From a virus: a stretch of DNA of 44,306 nt. The translations under genes and the position numbers were made by a program. The stretch is taken from the IMG/VR virus record IMGVR_UViG_3300045118_000300, positions 1 to 44,306 of that record; one strand, given 5' to 3'. The notes beneath the pieces are model-generated. The model did no database searches. It was not told the DNA's origin and saw nothing but the letters and a program-made list of their open reading frames with translations. Shown one piece after another: positions 11,100-30,696 of this stretch; within the stretch, counting starts at the first letter, position 1, and every line of letters starts with the position of its first letter.

Positions 11100-11284
11100 T
11101 AGTATTCATAGACGGATTACAACTAGAAAATAAAACCTTAGAAGAAAAATACAACAACAAGCAAGGTTTTAAATTTACTTACAAAGGAAAAGAATACACT
11201 CATAAAGATGTATTTGCCGTGGAACATCCTGACCAATTTGAAAAAATACGTGAGCAACTAAAATTAAAAGGAATAATAAAATGA
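11096..11284 (+). CDS. Small hypothetical protein
   Basis: This 62-residue protein of mixed alpha/beta character starts by overlapping the upstream stop (ATGATAG) and overlaps the methyltransferase start by 4 bases, so it is translationally coupled on both sides. There is a lysine-rich region near residue 33 (YKGKEYTHKD). No family is recognised. Confidence 0.5.
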   Translation: MIVFIDGLQLENKTLEEKYNNKQGFKFTYKGKEYTHKDVFAVEHPDQFEKIREQLKLKGIIK

Positions 11285-11991
11285 AATATCCAGAAGATTA
11301 TATTGGAAAAATAGTTTGTGGCGATTGTTTAGAGGTTATGAAAGGAATACCTGATAAAAGCGTGGATTTGGTTATAACTGACCCACCCTATGGATTGAAT
11401 TTTCGCTCACCTTGGCCGAGCGAAAAGAGAAAGAAAGATTTTATCACTAACGATAATCCAGATGACTTAGTGCCGTTAATTAAAAAAACAATTCCCGAAC
11501 TTGTAAGGGTGTTAAAAGACGACTCAGAGATATATTGGTTTTGTGGTGGTGGTGGTTCACCTATACTGGCTTGGGCTTGGCTTGCTTTTAAGGAATTAGA
11601 ACCAATGATTAGGGTAAAAAATGTTCTTGTTTGGGATAAAATGTGGCCAGGGTTGGGTTGGGATTGGCGTTTTCAATACGAAACAATTTTCCAGTTGGTT
11701 AAGGGCAAGGGAATAAAAAATAACGACCCCAACGCTGTTAATGTATTAAGGGCAAAAAAACTTATTCCGATGGAAGGAGAACACCCTACCCCCAAAAGCA
11801 CCGAGATAATTTATGAAATACTGAAACGCAAGACCAAAGAGGGGGATTTAGTCCTTGACCCTTTTAACGGTGGGGGTGCTACCAGTTTTACTTGTAAAAC
11901 CCATCAGCGCAGATTTATTGGAATAGAAATATCCCCCAAATACTGTGAAATAGCCAATAAAAGACTAGCCCAAGAAGTGTTGCCATTCTAA
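11281..11991 (+). CDS. Orphan DNA methyltransferase (N6-adenine or N4-cytosine type)
   Basis: This 236-residue protein transfers a methyl group from S-adenosylmethionine to an exocyclic amino group of a DNA base. The catalytic motif TDPPYGLNF lies at about residues 33-41 and the SAM-binding motif LDPFNGGGAT at about 195-204, followed by FIGIEISPKYCEIA. Catalytic motif before SAM motif is the beta-class order. There is no restriction endonuclease gene beside it, so it probably protects phage DNA from host restriction or marks it for replication or packaging. It starts by overlapping the preceding small gene. Confidence 0.85.
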   Translation: MKYPEDYIGKIVCGDCLEVMKGIPDKSVDLVITDPPYGLNFRSPWPSEKRKKDFITNDNPDDLVPLIKKTIPELVRVLKDDSEIYWFCGGGGSPILAWAWLAFKELEPMIRVKNVLVWDKMWPGLGWDWRFQYETIFQLVKGKGIKNNDPNAVNVLRAKKLIPMEGEHPTPKSTEIIYEILKRKTKEGDLVLDPFNGGGATSFTCKTHQRRFIGIEISPKYCEIANKRLAQEVLPF

Positions 11992-23263: not shown

Positions 23264-23647
23264 ATGCAACAACCCACACTCAAGCAAAAGAGATTCGCGG
23301 AGGCATACAAAGTTAGTGGCAACGCAACGCAAGCAGCCAAAATAGCATACGAAACAGAAAACACAAACACCGCAGCTTGCCAAGGCTATCAAAACCTAAA
23401 AAAAGACGTTGTAAGGCAACTAATACAGGACTACGCCCCTAAAGCACTAACTAATTATATTGGACTAGCAGAAAGAGCAAAAAAGGAAGAGGTGAGGGAG
23501 AGAACAAATTACAGATTGCTACAATTGAGCGGTTATTCGCCAATTGAAAGAAAATTGACAATGAAAATTAATCTTTTTTCAAAAAATAAAAAAACCAATA
23601 AATTAAAAACTGAATACGAGCATAAACTCAAGCAATTACTCTCATAA
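23264..23647 (+). CDS. terS: Terminase small subunit
   Basis: This 127-residue protein recognises the packaging site and loads the large terminase. Its N-terminus reads LKQKRFAEAYKVSGNATQAAKIAY, the classical TerS helix-turn-helix signature, given here in parts LKQKRFAEAY and SGNATQAAKIAY. A second helix ends with VRQLIQDY, and the rest is charged helix for oligomerisation. A small ATGCT/AGCAT hairpin lies just before the start. It is about 1.1 kb upstream of the large subunit, with an unusual long gap between. Confidence 0.75.
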   Translation: MQQPTLKQKRFAEAYKVSGNATQAAKIAYETENTNTAACQGYQNLKKDVVRQLIQDYAPKALTNYIGLAERAKKEEVRERTNYRLLQLSGYSPIERKLTMKINLFSKNKKTNKLKTEYEHKLKQLLS

Positions 23648-24507: not shown

Positions 24508-24792
24508 ATGTATAAAGATAAACGAAAATGGAACGAGTATATGAGTAAATACAGGAAAAAAAATAAAGTTTTATTTATCCCGAAAGATGACTTTACACTT
24601 TATGAGTTAAGGGTGTGGATTTACAAATACACTTTGTTTAATGGGGTTCTTCCCGATTATATTCATATGAATGAAAAAGGAGTCCAAAACTTTAAAAGTC
24701 TCTTAAAGGATAAACATACCGTAAAAGAAAATTTGGAAATTAGTGGAGTGAAAATTAAAAACATTGATAGATGCCAAAAGAAGAAGAAATAA
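24508..24792 (+). CDS. Small basic protein upstream of large terminase
   Basis: This has 94 residues from ATG 24508; an upstream start at 24385 would run through the promoter and is unlikely. The N-terminus is basic (MYKDKRKWNEYMSKYRKKNK) and is followed by an alpha/beta domain. It overlaps the large terminase by 22 bases. A DNA-binding partner of packaging is possible; no family is recognised. Confidence 0.5.
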   Translation: MYKDKRKWNEYMSKYRKKNKVLFIPKDDFTLYELRVWIYKYTLFNGVLPDYIHMNEKGVQNFKSLLKDKHTVKENLEISGVKIKNIDRCQKKKK

Positions 24793-27700
24793 GTTTGGCC
24801 AGCATAAGCATACACGCCTGGATTAACGAGAACAATATCGTGAACGAAAAGGGCGACCCCATTGAATTTAGGGAGCATCTTTTTTTATTTGACATCTATT
24901 CTGACGAAAGTAAAAATCTCGTTGTTATGAAACCTGCCCAGGTTGGTCTTTCAACTTTGCAAGTATTTAAAACAATCTGGGACTCTTATAGGAGAAAAAT
25001 AGACTCCATCTACTGCGTTGATGAAGAAACTGAAATTCTTACTAAAAGGGGATTTTTAAAACAGGAAGAGCTTTTAGATGATGATACTATACTTACCCTA
25101 GATACCGAAGGAGTTTCCATGTGGACAAAACTGGAAGAAATTTTCAGGAAGGAATATAGTGGTGAGATGATAAATTTTGAAGCGAGGAACTTCTCTGCCT
25201 GTGTTACCCCAGGACACAGATGGCTAGTAAGGCAGTATTATGTCCCTAAAACAAAGAAACAGGAATATTTCTTTGTTAAAACTGATGACTTTGGAAAGAA
25301 GAATTTGTTTATCCCCAAAAGATTATTAAATCCTCTTGTTTGTTCCGAATATAATGATGATTTTATTAAGTTGTTGTCTTGGGTATTTTCTGAAGGATAT
25401 TATTGTAAAATAAAGCATAAACACGACTGGTCTATTATAATTACCCAATCGTTCAAGAAAAACAAAAAGTATTGTAATGAGATAGAAAATATATTCAAAA
25501 AGTTGAAATTAGTATATAAAAGAATGGTTAATTATAGGGGTGACTGTTATGAATATAGGTTTGCTTTTGAAATGGGAAAATTTATAAAGGAAAGTTTCCC
25601 TGAAAAAATACCTACTCCAGAATTTATTTCTTCTTTATCTACAAGACAGGCAAAGATTTTTATAGACGAGTTTGTAAAAGGGGACGGATGGACAGATAGG
25701 ACTAATACCAAAGCAATAATACAAAAGTCAAAGAAATGTATTGATGTTCTCTGTATGGCGGCTGCGATAGCTGGTTATTCACCGAGTATTGTAAAGCCAA
25801 GTAAAAATGGTTGTTGGACACTGAGGCTTACTCAATTCGAACATATATATACCAGTGGCCTTAAATCAATAAAAAAACAATACAAAGGGATTGTGTGGTG
25901 TCCTAGAACTAAATATGGAACGTTCTACGCAAGAAGAATGGGAAGATGTTACTGGACTGGAAACACTTTGCCGACATACAACGATGTAAATGTGTTCGTT
26001 AGCGGGAAAGTCAACCGTTTAATTAAAAACAATCCTATCTTATTGGAACTCACCAAAGACAAGGACACTATTGAGCAGAAACAAATTGGTGACTCTATGA
26101 TTTATTATAGGGGGACATTCAATGAGAGAGCCGCTATTATGATACCAGCTGACGTTATTATCCACGATGAATTGGATAGTTCCGACCAGAAAAACGCCTC
26201 TTTTTATGTGTCCCGTATGCAGCACTCCAAAATCAAGGAAATGAGAGTTTTTTCCCACCCGTCAGTTGAGGGATTCGGGGTTTCCCACTACTACAACAAA
26301 TCCGATAAAAAAGAATGGTTCATAAAATGCCCTCACTGCAAGGAAGGACAATTCCTTAAATGGCCAGATAACGTTGATAAAGTTAGGAAGATATTTATTT
26401 GCCAATTTTGCAAAGGAGAATTGGGAAGAAACGACAGGAGAGTCGGGGAATGGAAGCCCACCGCCAAAGGGAAAAAATGGTCTGGCTACCACATTTCCCT
26501 CCTTATGTGTCCCTGGGTAACCGCCAAAGAAATTATTGAAAAGAGTGAAGACGAACAGACCGGCGTCCAGTTCTTCTACAACAAGGTTTTGGGACTTCCC
26601 TACACTGGAAGCGAATGCCTAATTACTTCCGAAGATATTTACCAGAATATCCAAACCCAAGGCACTAATTTACAGGAAGAACCGGTCGTAATTGGGGTGG
26701 ATACGGGACTGGCTCTACGCTACGTAATCGGCAATCAACGGGGTATTTTCCATTACGGGGAATGCGCCAAATATGAGGACTTGGAAGCGTTCCTTACCCG
26801 CTGGAAACGCTCTGTTATGGTAATAGACGCCGGCGGAGACATTGTAGGGAGTAGGGCTTTACGAGAAAAATATCCTGGCCGTGTGTTCCTTTGCTATTTT
26901 GCCAAAGACCGCAAAACCTACCAATTACTCCGCTGGGGGAAAAATGACGACGAAGGAGCGGTAGTCGCCGACCGCAATAGAATAATTCAATTAGTGGTTG
27001 ATGAGTTTAAGGACAAACGCCTTGCTTTATGGGGGACAAGGGAAGAATATGCCAATTTGGTAAAACACTTTTTAAACATTTATCGGGTGGAAGAAGAAAA
27101 CAAAATTGGGATTAAGGAATTCAAATGGAAGAGGAAAGGACGAGATGATTGGTGTTTAGACGGAAATTCCATTATTCTAACAAAGAACGGTAATAAGAAG
27201 TTAAAAGATGTAACAGAAGGAGAGTATGTTCTTACCAGAAAAGGTTGGAATAAGGTTTTGAAATCGGGAATTACAAGGAGAAACACCGAAGTTTTAGAAG
27301 TTTTGTTTTCAAACGGAAGTAAATTAATAGCTACTCCAAATCATAAAGTGTGGGTGGTAGGAAAAGAGTGGACTAGACTTGACACATTAGATTATAATGA
27401 TATAATACTTGCAATTAAACCAAATAAATGCAAGTCGAAACAATTGTGTTCAACGGAATTAAATTTAGAAGGTATCCAGAGTCAAAACACAGGACGCATA
27501 GATGCTACTTCTCTCCAGGAGGAAACCATAGGAAAAGAGGAATTGGACACTTACACCAAGAAATTTATCGATATTATTTTGGAAAAATTCCTAAAGGGTA
27601 TTGTATCCACCATAAGGACGAAAATCCGCTTAATAATACGTTGGATAACCTTGAAATACAAAAGAGGGGAACACACCAATCATTTCATAATAGAAAATGG

Positions 27701-28355
27701 TTGTCGGTTCCAGAAAATAAGGAAAAAATGCTTAAACATATTAGAGAAATACATAAACTTCCACAAACCCACGCTTGGAAAAAAACAAAAAAAGGAAAAG
27801 AACAAATGCGAAGAAACGCAATTAAGGCATTTTCTATACCGCCTAAAAAATTTATTTGTATTGAATGTAAAAATGAATCAGAAACGAGAAGAAATAATGG
27901 CGGTAAATTCTGCTCAAGAAAATGTACTTCAAGGTGGGCATCAAGAAAAAGAAGAAAAGAAAAAAAGGACTTTATATGGAAAATTTGTGTCATTTGTGGA
28001 AACAAATTCTTTACTAATAAATATTTTAAAGTCAAAACCTGCTCCTTACTATGTGCGGGTAAAAAGATTAGTAAAACTAAAAAAGAAAAGGGATGTTTAT
28101 AATTTGTCAGTTGAAAATTGCCACGAATATTTTGCCAATGGAATATTGGTTTCGAATTGTTTATCAACTTGCTACTTCAGGATTGGAATGAGCCGGTATG
28201 GAAGTGGTGGTAGTATAGTTGGTGGTGATAGTAGTGGTATAGTGATGGAAGGGATAAAAGAAGGAATAAGAATGAACCATTCGGAGTGTAGCAGTTTTGA
28301 CACTTCAAAACTCATTATGCCTGACCCAAATCAGGACGATTGGCGTAATTTTTGA
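24771..28355 (+). CDS. terL: Terminase large subunit interrupted by two inteins
   Basis: The 1194-residue precursor gives a 542-residue extein after removal of residues 82-398 and 795-1129. The extein is the packaging motor and nuclease: Walker A-like KPAQVGLST (54-62), Walker B VIIHDELD (462-469), a Cys-rich CPHC...CQFC site (about 510-545) typical of the GpA-type family, and nuclease Asp residues in GVDTGLA and VIDAGGD. A third acidic site, RDDW, sits exactly at intein 2. Intein 1 interrupts the segment SIY/TLPTYND after Walker A. Both lie at conserved catalytic sites, the usual homing targets. The reading frame is uninterrupted through both inteins. Confidence 0.9.
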   Translation: MPKEEEISLASISIHAWINENNIVNEKGDPIEFREHLFLFDIYSDESKNLVVMKPAQVGLSTLQVFKTIWDSYRRKIDSIYCVDEETEILTKRGFLKQEELLDDDTILTLDTEGVSMWTKLEEIFRKEYSGEMINFEARNFSACVTPGHRWLVRQYYVPKTKKQEYFFVKTDDFGKKNLFIPKRLLNPLVCSEYNDDFIKLLSWVFSEGYYCKIKHKHDWSIIITQSFKKNKKYCNEIENIFKKLKLVYKRMVNYRGDCYEYRFAFEMGKFIKESFPEKIPTPEFISSLSTRQAKIFIDEFVKGDGWTDRTNTKAIIQKSKKCIDVLCMAAAIAGYSPSIVKPSKNGCWTLRLTQFEHIYTSGLKSIKKQYKGIVWCPRTKYGTFYARRMGRCYWTGNTLPTYNDVNVFVSGKVNRLIKNNPILLELTKDKDTIEQKQIGDSMIYYRGTFNERAAIMIPADVIIHDELDSSDQKNASFYVSRMQHSKIKEMRVFSHPSVEGFGVSHYYNKSDKKEWFIKCPHCKEGQFLKWPDNVDKVRKIFICQFCKGELGRNDRRVGEWKPTAKGKKWSGYHISLLMCPWVTAKEIIEKSEDEQTGVQFFYNKVLGLPYTGSECLITSEDIYQNIQTQGTNLQEEPVVIGVDTGLALRYVIGNQRGIFHYGECAKYEDLEAFLTRWKRSVMVIDAGGDIVGSRALREKYPGRVFLCYFAKDRKTYQLLRWGKNDDEGAVVADRNRIIQLVVDEFKDKRLALWGTREEYANLVKHFLNIYRVEEENKIGIKEFKWKRKGRDDWCLDGNSIILTKNGNKKLKDVTEGEYVLTRKGWNKVLKSGITRRNTEVLEVLFSNGSKLIATPNHKVWVVGKEWTRLDTLDYNDIILAIKPNKCKSKQLCSTELNLEGIQSQNTGRIDATSLQEETIGKEELDTYTKKFIDIILEKFLKGIVSTIRTKIRLIIRWITLKYKRGEHTNHFIIENGCRFQKIRKKCLNILEKYINFHKPTLGKKQKKEKNKCEETQLRHFLYRLKNLFVLNVKMNQKREEIMAVNSAQENVLQGGHQEKEEKKKRTLYGKFVSFVETNSLLINILKSKPAPYYVRVKRLVKLKKKRDVYNLSVENCHEYFANGILVSNCLSTCYFRIGMSRYGSGGSIVGGDSSGIVMEGIKEGIRMNHSECSSFDTSKLIMPDPNQDDWRNF
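25014..25964 (+). mobile_element. Intein 1 with LAGLIDADG homing endonuclease
   Basis: It covers TerL residues 82-398 (317 residues). It starts with Cys in CVDEETEILTKRGF (block A). Block B holds CVTPGHRWLVR with the TxxH motif. The endonuclease domain has two LAGLIDADG-like helices, LLSWVFSEGYY and FIDEFVKGDGW. The C-terminal end GTFYARRMGRCYWTGN is followed by Thr+1. The penultimate residue is Gly rather than His, a variant seen in phage inteins. Splicing should yield SIY-TLPTYND. Confidence 0.85.
27379..27406 (+). promoter_or_regulatory. Consensus promoter inside intein 2
   Basis: TTGACA (27379-27384) and TATAAT (27401-27406) are separated by 16 bp; a second TATAAT is at 27393. The predicted start near 27413 leaves a leader of about 15 nt before the HNH ATG at 27428. 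The same bases encode the intein residues LDTLDYNDII. Confidence 0.7.
27428..28102 (+). CDS. HNH homing endonuclease encoded out of frame within intein 2
   Basis: This 224-residue protein probably cuts intein-less terL alleles. The N-terminal part has FNGIKFRRYPESK, then a domain with LHQEIYRYYFGKIPKGYCIHHKDENPLNN (shown in parts: LHQEIYRYYFGKIPKGY and CIHHKDENPLNNTLDNLE), the classical HNH nuclease core at about residues 42-75. Two Cys clusters follow (CIECKNE...FCSRKC and CVICGNK...CSLLC, about 140-215), likely zinc-binding DNA contacts. An in-frame TAA directly precedes the ATG, so it cannot be reached by frameshift from upstream in the same frame. It overlaps intein coding sequence over its full length in the +2 frame. 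Confidence 0.85.
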   Translation: MQVETIVFNGIKFRRYPESKHRTHRCYFSPGGNHRKRGIGHLHQEIYRYYFGKIPKGYCIHHKDENPLNNTLDNLEIQKRGTHQSFHNRKWLSVPENKEKMLKHIREIHKLPQTHAWKKTKKGKEQMRRNAIKAFSIPPKKFICIECKNESETRRNNGGKFCSRKCTSRWASRKRRKEKKDFIWKICVICGNKFFTNKYFKVKTCSLLCAGKKISKTKKEKGCL

Positions 28356-28420
28356 CATTTGAAATTTTGTGGTAATATACACTCATTATGAAAACAAACA
28401 AATTTATAAAATTGACTTTT

Positions 28421-28458
28421 TGCTATAATAAGGGAACGGTTTTTTCGTTTCCTTTTTT
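28421..28458 (+). promoter_or_regulatory. Extended -10 site followed at once by terminator-like hairpin
   Basis: TGCTATAAT (28421-28429) is an extended -10. GGGAACG (28432-28438) and CGTTTCC (28446-28452) form a 7-bp stem (one G-U) followed by six T. The hairpin more likely ends terL transcription; whether the -10 is active is uncertain. The following 28459-28744 has no gene. Confidence 0.45.
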
Positions 28459-28561
28459 ATTTTACAATTTTGGCAAAACCTGTTTTTCTTAAAATCTTTT
28501 CAGTAAAAAAAGACCGTTCAGAAGTAATCTTTGCGGGGGATAAATGGTAGATGGCGAAATT

Positions 28562-28815: not shown

Positions 28816-30696
28816 TTGAGTGAAACAGGAGACTTACGTGAAGGCTTCTATTCGTTAGAAGCTGAAGACAACAAAGTAAAAACGGAAAACGAAGAACAAC
28901 GTGAGGGATTAGAAGACAAAGTTCCCGAACTTTCTTTAGAAATGTCTAATGAAGCCCTTTTGGATTTGGAAAAGAAATGGATTAAAAAATGGAGTGCCTA
29001 TTATCCAAAGATAAAAAGTCTCCAGGAAAAGAATGAAAAATATTGGCTTGGAAAATTCTACGATTTAAAAAAGATGGAAGACGGAAATTCCATTATGGAT
29101 AACATTATTTTTGAGTCATTAGAGACATTTCTTCCGATAGCCGGCAAAAATTCTCCCGACCCAGTAGTTACCGCGGACAATTCCGAAGAAGGAAATTCCC
29201 TTAGTAAAAAAGTCCAGCAAATGCTTGTCTATCTTGCCGATAATTTGCGAATGAAACTTAGGATTAAAAGAGTAATTCGTTATTGGGCCTTGTATCTCTT
29301 AGGAGTTGTAAAAGTTGGTTGGAGTTTAAAAAACAACGAGATAACATTAACTATAATTCGACCACAGAAGTTAATTCTTGACTCTGATGGAACTGTGAAT
29401 GATGATATGGAATATGACGGTGAATTTGTTGGAGAGTATAAAGAAGAAAAAGCCTCAATTCTTGTCCAGCGTTTTCCTGAAAGCAAAGAGATGATTTCTG
29501 AAAAAGTAGAAGGCAATATGGGAACTAAAATAAAATACAAAGAATGGACTACCGATGAATACACTTTTTGGACTTACAATAAAAAGGTCTTAGGAAAAAT
29601 AAAGAACCCCCATTGGAATTATCCTCAAGAGTCAACTGAAATAGACGAAAACGGTAATGAGGTTCCTGTTACCATTCCCGCTAAAAACCACTTTAATACT
29701 CCAAAAAAGCCCTATGTGTTCCTTTCGATATTCAACCTGGGAAAACATCCCTTTGATGAAACGAGTTTAATCGGCCAAAACCTGAGTAACCAGGACATAA
29801 TCAACAAAAGAAATAGGCAAATTGACCGCAATGTTGATATGATGAATGGTTCGATAGCAATTTCAGGAGAAAAAACCGGACTTACGAAAGAACAGGCTTC
29901 CCAAGCCGTTGATGGCTTTAGAAAAGGAAAGGGGATATTTATGCCTTCTGGAGACCCCAACCAGGGTGTTTTAAGGGTTACTTCACCCAATCTCCCAAGC
30001 GACGTATACAACAATTTGATTGACGTAAGAAATGAACTTCGCAACATCTTTGGCACTAGAGGCTCTTCACCACAGGGAATAATAAATGAAAGGTCGGTAA
30101 GGGGAAAATTGACTATTGCGCAGAGTGACCAGAGTAGAATAGGTGGAGGTATAGTGGAATATGTTGAGCAGTTCTCTGATAAAGTGTTCAACTGGTTTGT
30201 CCAAATGATGTATGTGTATTATGATGAGAGTCATATAGGGGCAGTAATCGGAAGGGATAAAGCTCAGGAATATGTTGCTCTTTCTAATCAGGACTTTACT
30301 AGAAAATTAACTGTTTCTGTTAAGGAAGGTTCGCTTATTCCTAAGGACTCCGTAAGCAAGGCAGAACAGGCAATCCAACTTGCTCAGTTGCAAATGATAG
30401 ATCCTATTACTCTTTTTGACCGACTGGAGTTCCCTAATCCTCGTGAAACCGCCAAACGGCTTTGGATATGGAACAATAATCCTACTTACTTGTTTAGTGG
30501 AGACCAAGATATTGCCGCTATACAACAGGCGCAGAAAGAACAGGAAGATGAACAGGAATTAAAAGCCGCTTCCTATAAAGACCAGGAACACGTTGACGAA
30601 GTTGATTTAGCAGTTAAAAAAGAACAAGCTAGAGCAATATATAATCCTAAACCTAAAAGCAATGAAACTAAGAAGACCAACACCTCAAATGCCTAA
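28816..30696 (+). CDS. Portal protein (podovirus, P22-like)
   Basis: This 626-residue protein is the dodecameric DNA gate at the capsid vertex. It starts with TTG at 28816; an ATG start at 28942 (MSNEALLDLEKKW) is a plausible alternative. Features are an N-terminal helix-rich wing (45-120), a central region with YWALYLLGVVKVGW and DPRQKL-like IIRPQKLILD (about 155-195), DVMNGSIAISG, a conserved SSPQGIINERSVRGKLTIAQ segment (split: SSPQGIINERSVRG and KLTIAQSDQ, about 417-440) and a long C-terminal helical region. Position after terL and before the scaffold supports the call. Confidence 0.75.
   Translation: MSETGDLREGFYSLEAEDNKVKTENEEQREGLEDKVPELSLEMSNEALLDLEKKWIKKWSAYYPKIKSLQEKNEKYWLGKFYDLKKMEDGNSIMDNIIFESLETFLPIAGKNSPDPVVTADNSEEGNSLSKKVQQMLVYLADNLRMKLRIKRVIRYWALYLLGVVKVGWSLKNNEITLTIIRPQKLILDSDGTVNDDMEYDGEFVGEYKEEKASILVQRFPESKEMISEKVEGNMGTKIKYKEWTTDEYTFWTYNKKVLGKIKNPHWNYPQESTEIDENGNEVPVTIPAKNHFNTPKKPYVFLSIFNLGKHPFDETSLIGQNLSNQDIINKRNRQIDRNVDMMNGSIAISGEKTGLTKEQASQAVDGFRKGKGIFMPSGDPNQGVLRVTSPNLPSDVYNNLIDVRNELRNIFGTRGSSPQGIINERSVRGKLTIAQSDQSRIGGGIVEYVEQFSDKVFNWFVQMMYVYYDESHIGAVIGRDKAQEYVALSNQDFTRKLTVSVKEGSLIPKDSVSKAEQAIQLAQLQMIDPITLFDRLEFPNPRETAKRLWIWNNNPTYLFSGDQDIAAIQQAQKEQEDEQELKAASYKDQEHVDEVDLAVKKEQARAIYNPKPKSNETKKTNTSNA

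Follow-up and report, generated by a model that had tools for sequence, protein, structure and literature searches.

Two inteins in one terminase gene

The terminase large subunit (TerL) gene described here lies in the virus record IMGVR_UViG_3300045118_000300, which was analysed over its whole length of 44,306 bases (38% G+C; hereafter, the window), and occupies positions 24771..28355 of the plus strand as a single continuous open reading frame (ORF) of 1194 residues. The product is a GpA-type TerL, with profile matches to GpA_ATPase (3.3e-13), Intein_splicing (7.7e-13) and HNH_3 (6.1e-11), and is interrupted by two inteins. The gene very probably houses two independent homing inteins, the second of which (intein 2) combines a splicing domain with an overlapping, stand-alone HNH nuclease gene whose frame is set by a sieve of stop codons. 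The basis of this reading is formed by the anatomy of the gene, a frame rule, selection that keeps the host frame open, conservation of the HNH frame as protein, splicing motifs that are intact, and split forms that occupy an identical insertion site.

On the plus strand, the N-extein (residues 1–81, 24771..25013), which contains the Walker A-like segment MKPAQVGLST at residues 53–62, is followed by intein 1 (residues 82–398, 317 residues, 25014..25964), the middle extein (residues 399–794, 25965..27152), intein 2 (residues 795–1129, 335 residues, 27153..28157) and the C-extein with its stop codon (residues 1130–1194, 28158..28355). The middle extein ends in RDDW, which probably represents the third acidic nuclease motif. 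Removal of C82–N398 and C795–N1129, which are followed by T399 and C1130, respectively, leaves a spliced TerL of 542 residues. An alignment with 33 TerL relatives from viral contigs passes through both joints without a gap or a lost residue: DSIY/TLPT aligns to IIYTLPT at joint 1, and RDDW/CLSTCY to RDDWVHATLYW or DHFCHALLY at joint 2. The relatives include L002–L007, which are near-copies of each other; joint 1 is outside the coverage of L025 and joint 2 outside that of L021, L031 and L033, and L029 ends soon after joint 2. A preliminary description of this DNA had proposed that a single TerL contains two inteins which differ in how their endonucleases are arranged, and that the extein rejoins to 542 residues; the single ORF, from which both inserts can be removed, and the comparison with intein-free TerL, in which no extein residue is missing at either junction, bear out both proposals. 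Intein 1 is absent from every other TerL relative whose alignment covers joint 1, and intein 2 is carried by only three relatives (L009, L011 and L036).

Intein 1 is a conventional intein, whose endonuclease region is in frame. It extends from C1 to WTGN/T, displays the class 1 splicing motifs C1, TPGH and TGN/T, and matches over its full length (1–317) inteins of phages in TerL, portal and other genes (tblastn); its score against TIGR01445 is 24.1 bits, the cut-off being 24.5. No Pfam match was obtained for it, the LAGLIDADG profile included, and two PDB rows (E = 0.36 and 0.47) are chance matches. Motifs read by eye suggest that the endonuclease region is of the LAGLIDADG type. The insertion had been placed just after Walker A, at a catalytic site; the joint is 19 residues past the end of that segment, at the next strand and outside the catalytic motif.

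Intein 2 carries the class 1 motifs C1, TPNH and VSN/C, matches PF14890 (8.9e-15), exceeds the cut-offs of both TIGR01445 and TIGR01443, and is missing from homologues in which the extein is intact, as is typical of a class 1 intein. Its structure model is confident in an N-terminal splicing half (residues 1–90, 27153..27422, plus strand), where the predicted local distance difference test score (pLDDT) is about 93–98, and in a C-terminal splicing half (residues 300–335, 28050..28157, plus strand; about 97), and is weak in the middle, where the score falls to 36–79 in ten-residue blocks. The Hint fold of the model is nearest to that of the gp41-1 intein (6.4e-7), with NrdJ-1 at rank 6.

A nuclease gene in the shifted frame

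The poorly modelled middle of intein 2 (27423..28049, plus strand) is a stop-free filler of about 205 residues and corresponds to the host-frame reading of another gene. This hidden gene, at 27428..28102 of the plus strand, encodes a putative HNH homing endonuclease of 224 residues and is read in frame −1 relative to the intein, from an ATG of its own, directly preceded by TAA, to a stop of its own; the first 53 bases of the C-terminal splicing half are shared with its 3′ end. The nuclease is not in the reading frame of intein 2, which is open across the whole HNH gene, and the window terL, being one ORF, is not a split-intein or fractured gene. Intein 2 had been described beforehand as having a nested HNH, which it does; what had not been drawn out is that this gene is read in a different frame, between start and stop codons that belong to it alone. 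As a separate observation, the PHROG of unknown function phrog_35162 matches residues 141–335 of intein 2, that is, the filler and the C-half, which suggests that one or more protein families are based on this filler.

The HNH protein matches PF13392 (HNH_3, 6.1e-11) and phrog_15471 (7e-28), and its model has a pLDDT of 94.5. I-HmuI (PDB 1u3e) is its only sequence match among solved structures (E = 3e-4); a fold search with the model returned nothing at E = 0.001 or better, the whole-chain fold match to I-HmuI being weak (E = 0.17). I-HmuI and HNH endonucleases like it are carried by group I introns, whereas the HNH gene here is borne by an intein; the kinship would favour an explanation of the stretch as a group I or II RNA intron that contains an ORF. 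This explanation was rejected, as no Rfam match reached the gathering score in the window, nor was any found up to E = 1 over 24700–28500; together with the Intein_splicing match, the Hint fold and the preserved reading frame, this leaves it with practically no probability.

Relatives of the HNH protein were gathered by HNH-driven searches from named phages (26 records, of which 13 regions were taken), viral contigs (at least 600 stretches, yielding at least 187 relatives, the best 80 of which were kept) and one genome per species (61 of 62 loci passed the HNH score cut, L190 failing); proportions in this survey are not prevalences. The Hint N- and C-halves were sought in all three forward frames, blind to the HNH frame. 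This approach identified 159 HNH loci, of which 100 (72 viral, 28 genomic) are continuous inteins with the host frame at the HNH frame +1, one (L128) is continuous in the +2 frame and none is in frame; 22 further loci have both halves in a broken frame, four have one half only, and 32 are without Hint halves. Continuous examples include Acinetobacter phage Highwayman, Tetrasphaera phage TJE1 and Rhodobacteraceae phage LS06-2018-MD07, as well as contigs of Frankia sp. AgB32 and Glycomyces amatae. The families matched by the 61 of 98 host ORFs scanned were Terminase_6N (27), Terminase_3 (18), GpA_ATPase (3) and Intein_splicing (51). The insertion site is alike in most loci (an acidic or His motif, then C, then CxDAxRY or similar), and the presence of the intein at that single TerL site is patchy among relatives.

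Intein ends were assigned for 98 of the 101 continuous inteins (L114, L157 and L172 failed the pattern), and the splicing residues among these are intact: the final N and a +1 C, S or T are present in 98 each, both having been criteria in the assignment of the ends; TxxH of block B is present in 97 and C1 in 93, the five further inteins that start with a non-C residue having ends that are most likely mis-set. The HNH and zinc-finger residues are conserved in 13 aligned copies, and the HNH motif occurs in 101/101 continuous copies, the viral scan having itself selected on this motif.

In 21 loci the element is split: TerL and the N-half share one ORF, followed by the HNH gene in any frame, and the C-half and the tail of TerL form a separate ORF, at the same insertion site. 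One more locus, L140, was counted as broken and looks like a nested copy with a frameshift. Split examples (L044, L050, L156 and L159) are found in Lactobacillus phage CL2, Vibrio phage 1.238.A and contigs of Staphylococcus borealis and Leuconostoc falkenbergense; the CL2 record has no annotation for the C-half, and that of 1.238.A calls it a hedgehog/hint domain protein. A TerL-like gene adjoins 20 of the 32 copies without Hint halves, and in Acinetobacter phage BP10 the HNH gene precedes terS and TerL is whole. A weakly supported HNH tree, built by a quick method from 145 of the 159 copies, mixes the nested, split and stand-alone states, with 23 label changes to which it gives no direction.

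Other TerLs carry double inteins in other combinations (L061, L089, L101, L109, L149 and L050), which fits repeated invasion. In L101 (1–2832), one TerL contains an intein at Walker B and another at the nuclease motif, and each hides its own HNH in the same frame relation. The Vibrio TerL of L050 (1–900) also has an in-frame intein at the P-loop, with LAGLIDADG-like motifs seen by eye, and its in-frame and split inteins indicate that double inteins of two kinds recur. In L149 (3–3332), the upstream intein hides not an HNH nuclease gene but one for endonuclease VII, which is likewise hidden in the TerL inteins of L201–L205; these copies come from mycobacteriophages, Gordonia phages and a Berkelbacteria contig. 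Among 1681 records matched in a search with the L149 protein, four named phages and Chandler were examined, and the same −1 relation was identified in Gordonia phages Nordenberg and Keitabear and mycobacteriophages Phlyer and Vincenzo. Over the intein, Chandler gp6 and Phlyer are 99.9% identical, and gp6 has the same hidden endonuclease VII frame. The TerL6-f intein of Chandler and Phlyer differs from intein 2 in its site, the ATPase C-motif, and in its nuclease family. According to the available text of Kelley et al. 2016 (PMC5050341), the Chandler intein spliced readily in a reporter, as was true of the five TerL inteins tested, mainly to ligated product, and the only inteins for which endonuclease domains are described there are those of BAKA and Bethlehem. 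Splicing is therefore already known for one intein built in this way, its hidden nuclease having apparently gone unnoticed.

Stop codons, coding frames and initiation

The openness of the host frame was examined by shuffling synonymous codons so that the HNH protein was kept and host-frame stops could be counted. Under the HNH ORF of the window there are 0 host-frame stops, as against 4.5 expected (P of zero = 0.001). For copies of at least 130 codons, with L128 and L140 set aside, the mean number of host-frame stops is 0 in 97 nested copies (1.96 expected), 7.6 in 21 split copies (6.9 expected) and 5.7 in 21 stand-alone copies (5.7 expected). Nested copies are stop-free by definition, so the weight rests on the agreement of the other two classes with expectation and on the improbability of the nested zeros, for which log10 P adds up to −54 even when each of the 47 clusters at 50% identity is represented by its most permissive member. 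L128 has 0 stops in its own host frame, as against 13.1 expected. The +2 frame shows no comparable depletion in nested copies (16.5 vs. 17.5 expected) or stand-alone copies (19.6 vs. 20.2), and somewhat fewer stops than expected in split copies (17.3 vs. 20.4); the N-half lies in the +2 frame in 13 of the 22 broken-frame loci. Selection thus keeps the host frame open in the nested copies.

The HNH frame is the coding frame and is conserved at the protein level. In 12 hand-picked, non-random pairs, identity is 0.44–0.76 for the HNH protein as against 0.22–0.59 for the host frame, and in 12/12 pairs the third codon position of the HNH frame changes most and the second least; in distant pairs, host-frame identity is near the synonymous expectation. 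It is hardly credible, then, that the intein functions through the filler, with the HNH frame being a mere relic or the product of chance. Chance can create overlapping ORFs where DNA is AT-rich, and the HNH ORF fails to span the profile match in 3/101 continuous copies; set against this are the stop counts in the window, the codon-position bias, the confident HNH fold beside a poorly modelled filler, and the conservation of the HNH and zinc-finger residues and of the HNH motif described above.

Among 72 nested viral copies, the start codon picked near the profile start is ATG in 66 and GTG in 5; the stop upstream is a median of 4 codons away, and a Shine–Dalgarno match of at least five bases precedes the start in 28/71, as against 4.7 expected in shuffles. 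The distance from the HNH stop to the end of the intein has a median of 49 bases and is within 75 bases in 93/97. The usual direction of bacterial frameshifting is −1. With 100/101 continuous cases showing this −1 relation of the HNH to the host frame, the nuclease might be made not from its own start but as an intein–HNH fusion by programmed −1 ribosomal frameshifting from TerL. This appears unlikely: the TAA directly before the HNH ATG in the window and the close upstream stops elsewhere leave almost no room for such a shift, Shine–Dalgarno sequences are enriched at HNH starts, L128 uses the other frame, split forms occur in all frames relative to the N-half, and inspection of the window junction by eye revealed no classical slippery heptamer.

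Proposed homing and splitting, and the place of hidden nucleases

On this account, intein 2 consists of two genes that overlap and share a fate. Read in the host frame, two Hint halves would flank a filler with no function beyond its freedom from stops; the host ribosome would read through, and the intein would splice itself out of the precursor. A second initiation would yield the HNH nuclease, which may cut intein-free terL, so that repair copies the whole element in. Where the host frame closes, TerL would be translated as two parts that a split intein must join again, the nested form probably preceding the split one. The absence of an in-frame HNH from continuous TerL is explained by the stop codon that a complete nuclease gene brings with it, and, as judged from stand-alone copies, the +1 shadow contains about 6 stops and the +2 shadow about 20, so that almost all survivors are in one frame.

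Several points weigh against this account of a stop-codon sieve and separate initiation. A single founding insertion in the HNH family could account for the uniform frame by inheritance, repeated events being argued for only by L128, endonuclease VII and ShiLan (see below). The open frame of GC-rich copies is not significant singly (P of zero is 0.59 for L040 from TJE1 and 0.94 for L204), and in the GC-rich endonuclease VII copies it is likewise weak one by one (0.07–0.94 in four phages). Close pairs exceed the host-frame identity of shuffles (z = 7.2 for L009/L011 and 3.9 for L075/L106); this excess is read as codons shared by descent, although some host-frame constraint is possible. The presence of start codons near the profile start is partly by construction, and the HNH start in the window has no clear Shine–Dalgarno sequence.

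The preliminary description had further suggested that the ATPase and nuclease stay inactive until both inteins are removed, and that splicing might time packaging. The first part is a fair deduction, as the inserts break both domains, which would not be whole before splicing, and it would make the two inteins a control device. Timing of packaging was rejected as the main explanation on the ground that the inteins are not conserved among TerL relatives (intein 1 is absent where joint 1 is covered, and intein 2 is found in three only), and no evidence for it was found. In addition, the five published TerL inteins spliced readily in the available text of PMC5050341, and conservation of the sites is expected from homing alone: both insertion sites fall in conserved sequence, as a homing element requires. 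A control device is therefore very unlikely.

Split inteins or “fractured genes” with endonucleases between the halves were reportedly described by Dassa in 2009. Such fractured genes are also cited in the available text of PMC11766414; an endonuclease gene between two intein halves is the form common to the 21 split loci here, whereas most copies collected here are continuous and overlapping. The naturally split terminase inteins AceL-TerL and GOS-TerL, in the same text, have N-halves of 25 and 37 residues; the split N-halves here, by contrast, end near the usual endonuclease point. The closest parallel to the hidden frame is the ShiLan domain of a mycobacteriophage DNA methylase, described in the available text of PMC11855218, in which a complete HNH gene with zinc fingers occupies the third frame of an in-frame, stop-free insert. 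The frame relation is the same as in intein 2, and the insert ends at the HNH stop; in the ShiLan insert, however, no splicing domain was found, and it is thought to be retained in the methylase, whereas the HNH gene of intein 2 lies out of frame within a complete intein with a detectable splicing domain. In the literature as far as it was available, no out-of-frame endonuclease inside a complete intein was found apart from PMC11855218 and PMC12613952, and a 2025 preprint may overlap. Complete inteins with out-of-frame nucleases as a large class, bridging ShiLan and split inteins, may accordingly be new, with some of this perhaps already in that preprint.

The remaining genes of the window include those of a tailed phage, with a major head protein, tail spikes and, at 23264..23647 on the plus strand, upstream of terL, the packaging gene for the terminase small subunit (PF03592, 1e-7). 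A DNA methylase gene is located at 11281–11991 (N6_N4_Mtase, 1.5e-31), and the profile spans it without an obvious insert. A 626-residue ORF after TerL (28816–30696) occupies the usual place of the portal gene and has no Pfam or PHROG match.

With moderate confidence, out-of-frame endonuclease genes in complete inteins can be regarded as a general, overlooked class that is held by selection for an open shadow frame and forms a main route to natural split inteins. This would embrace at least two nuclease families and several TerL sites, in phages and contigs of many hosts, and once the shadow frame closes only lineages whose intein halves work in trans would survive. Inteins are classed by the presence of an in-frame endonuclease; should whole nuclease genes lie concealed in another frame, protein searches would miss them, and degenerate-looking inteins may be mobile. 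Many phage inteins listed as endonuclease-free may hide one in the −1 frame. Chandler gp6, a published splicing construct, already holds such a hidden nuclease frame. The filler would offer a rare natural test of overlapping genes, with one frame kept as protein and the other only kept open, for which the stand-alone and split copies are built-in controls. The split copies are also candidate new protein-joining tools, and, with nested, split and stand-alone forms all known from one TerL site, the question of how natural split inteins arose can be tested directly.

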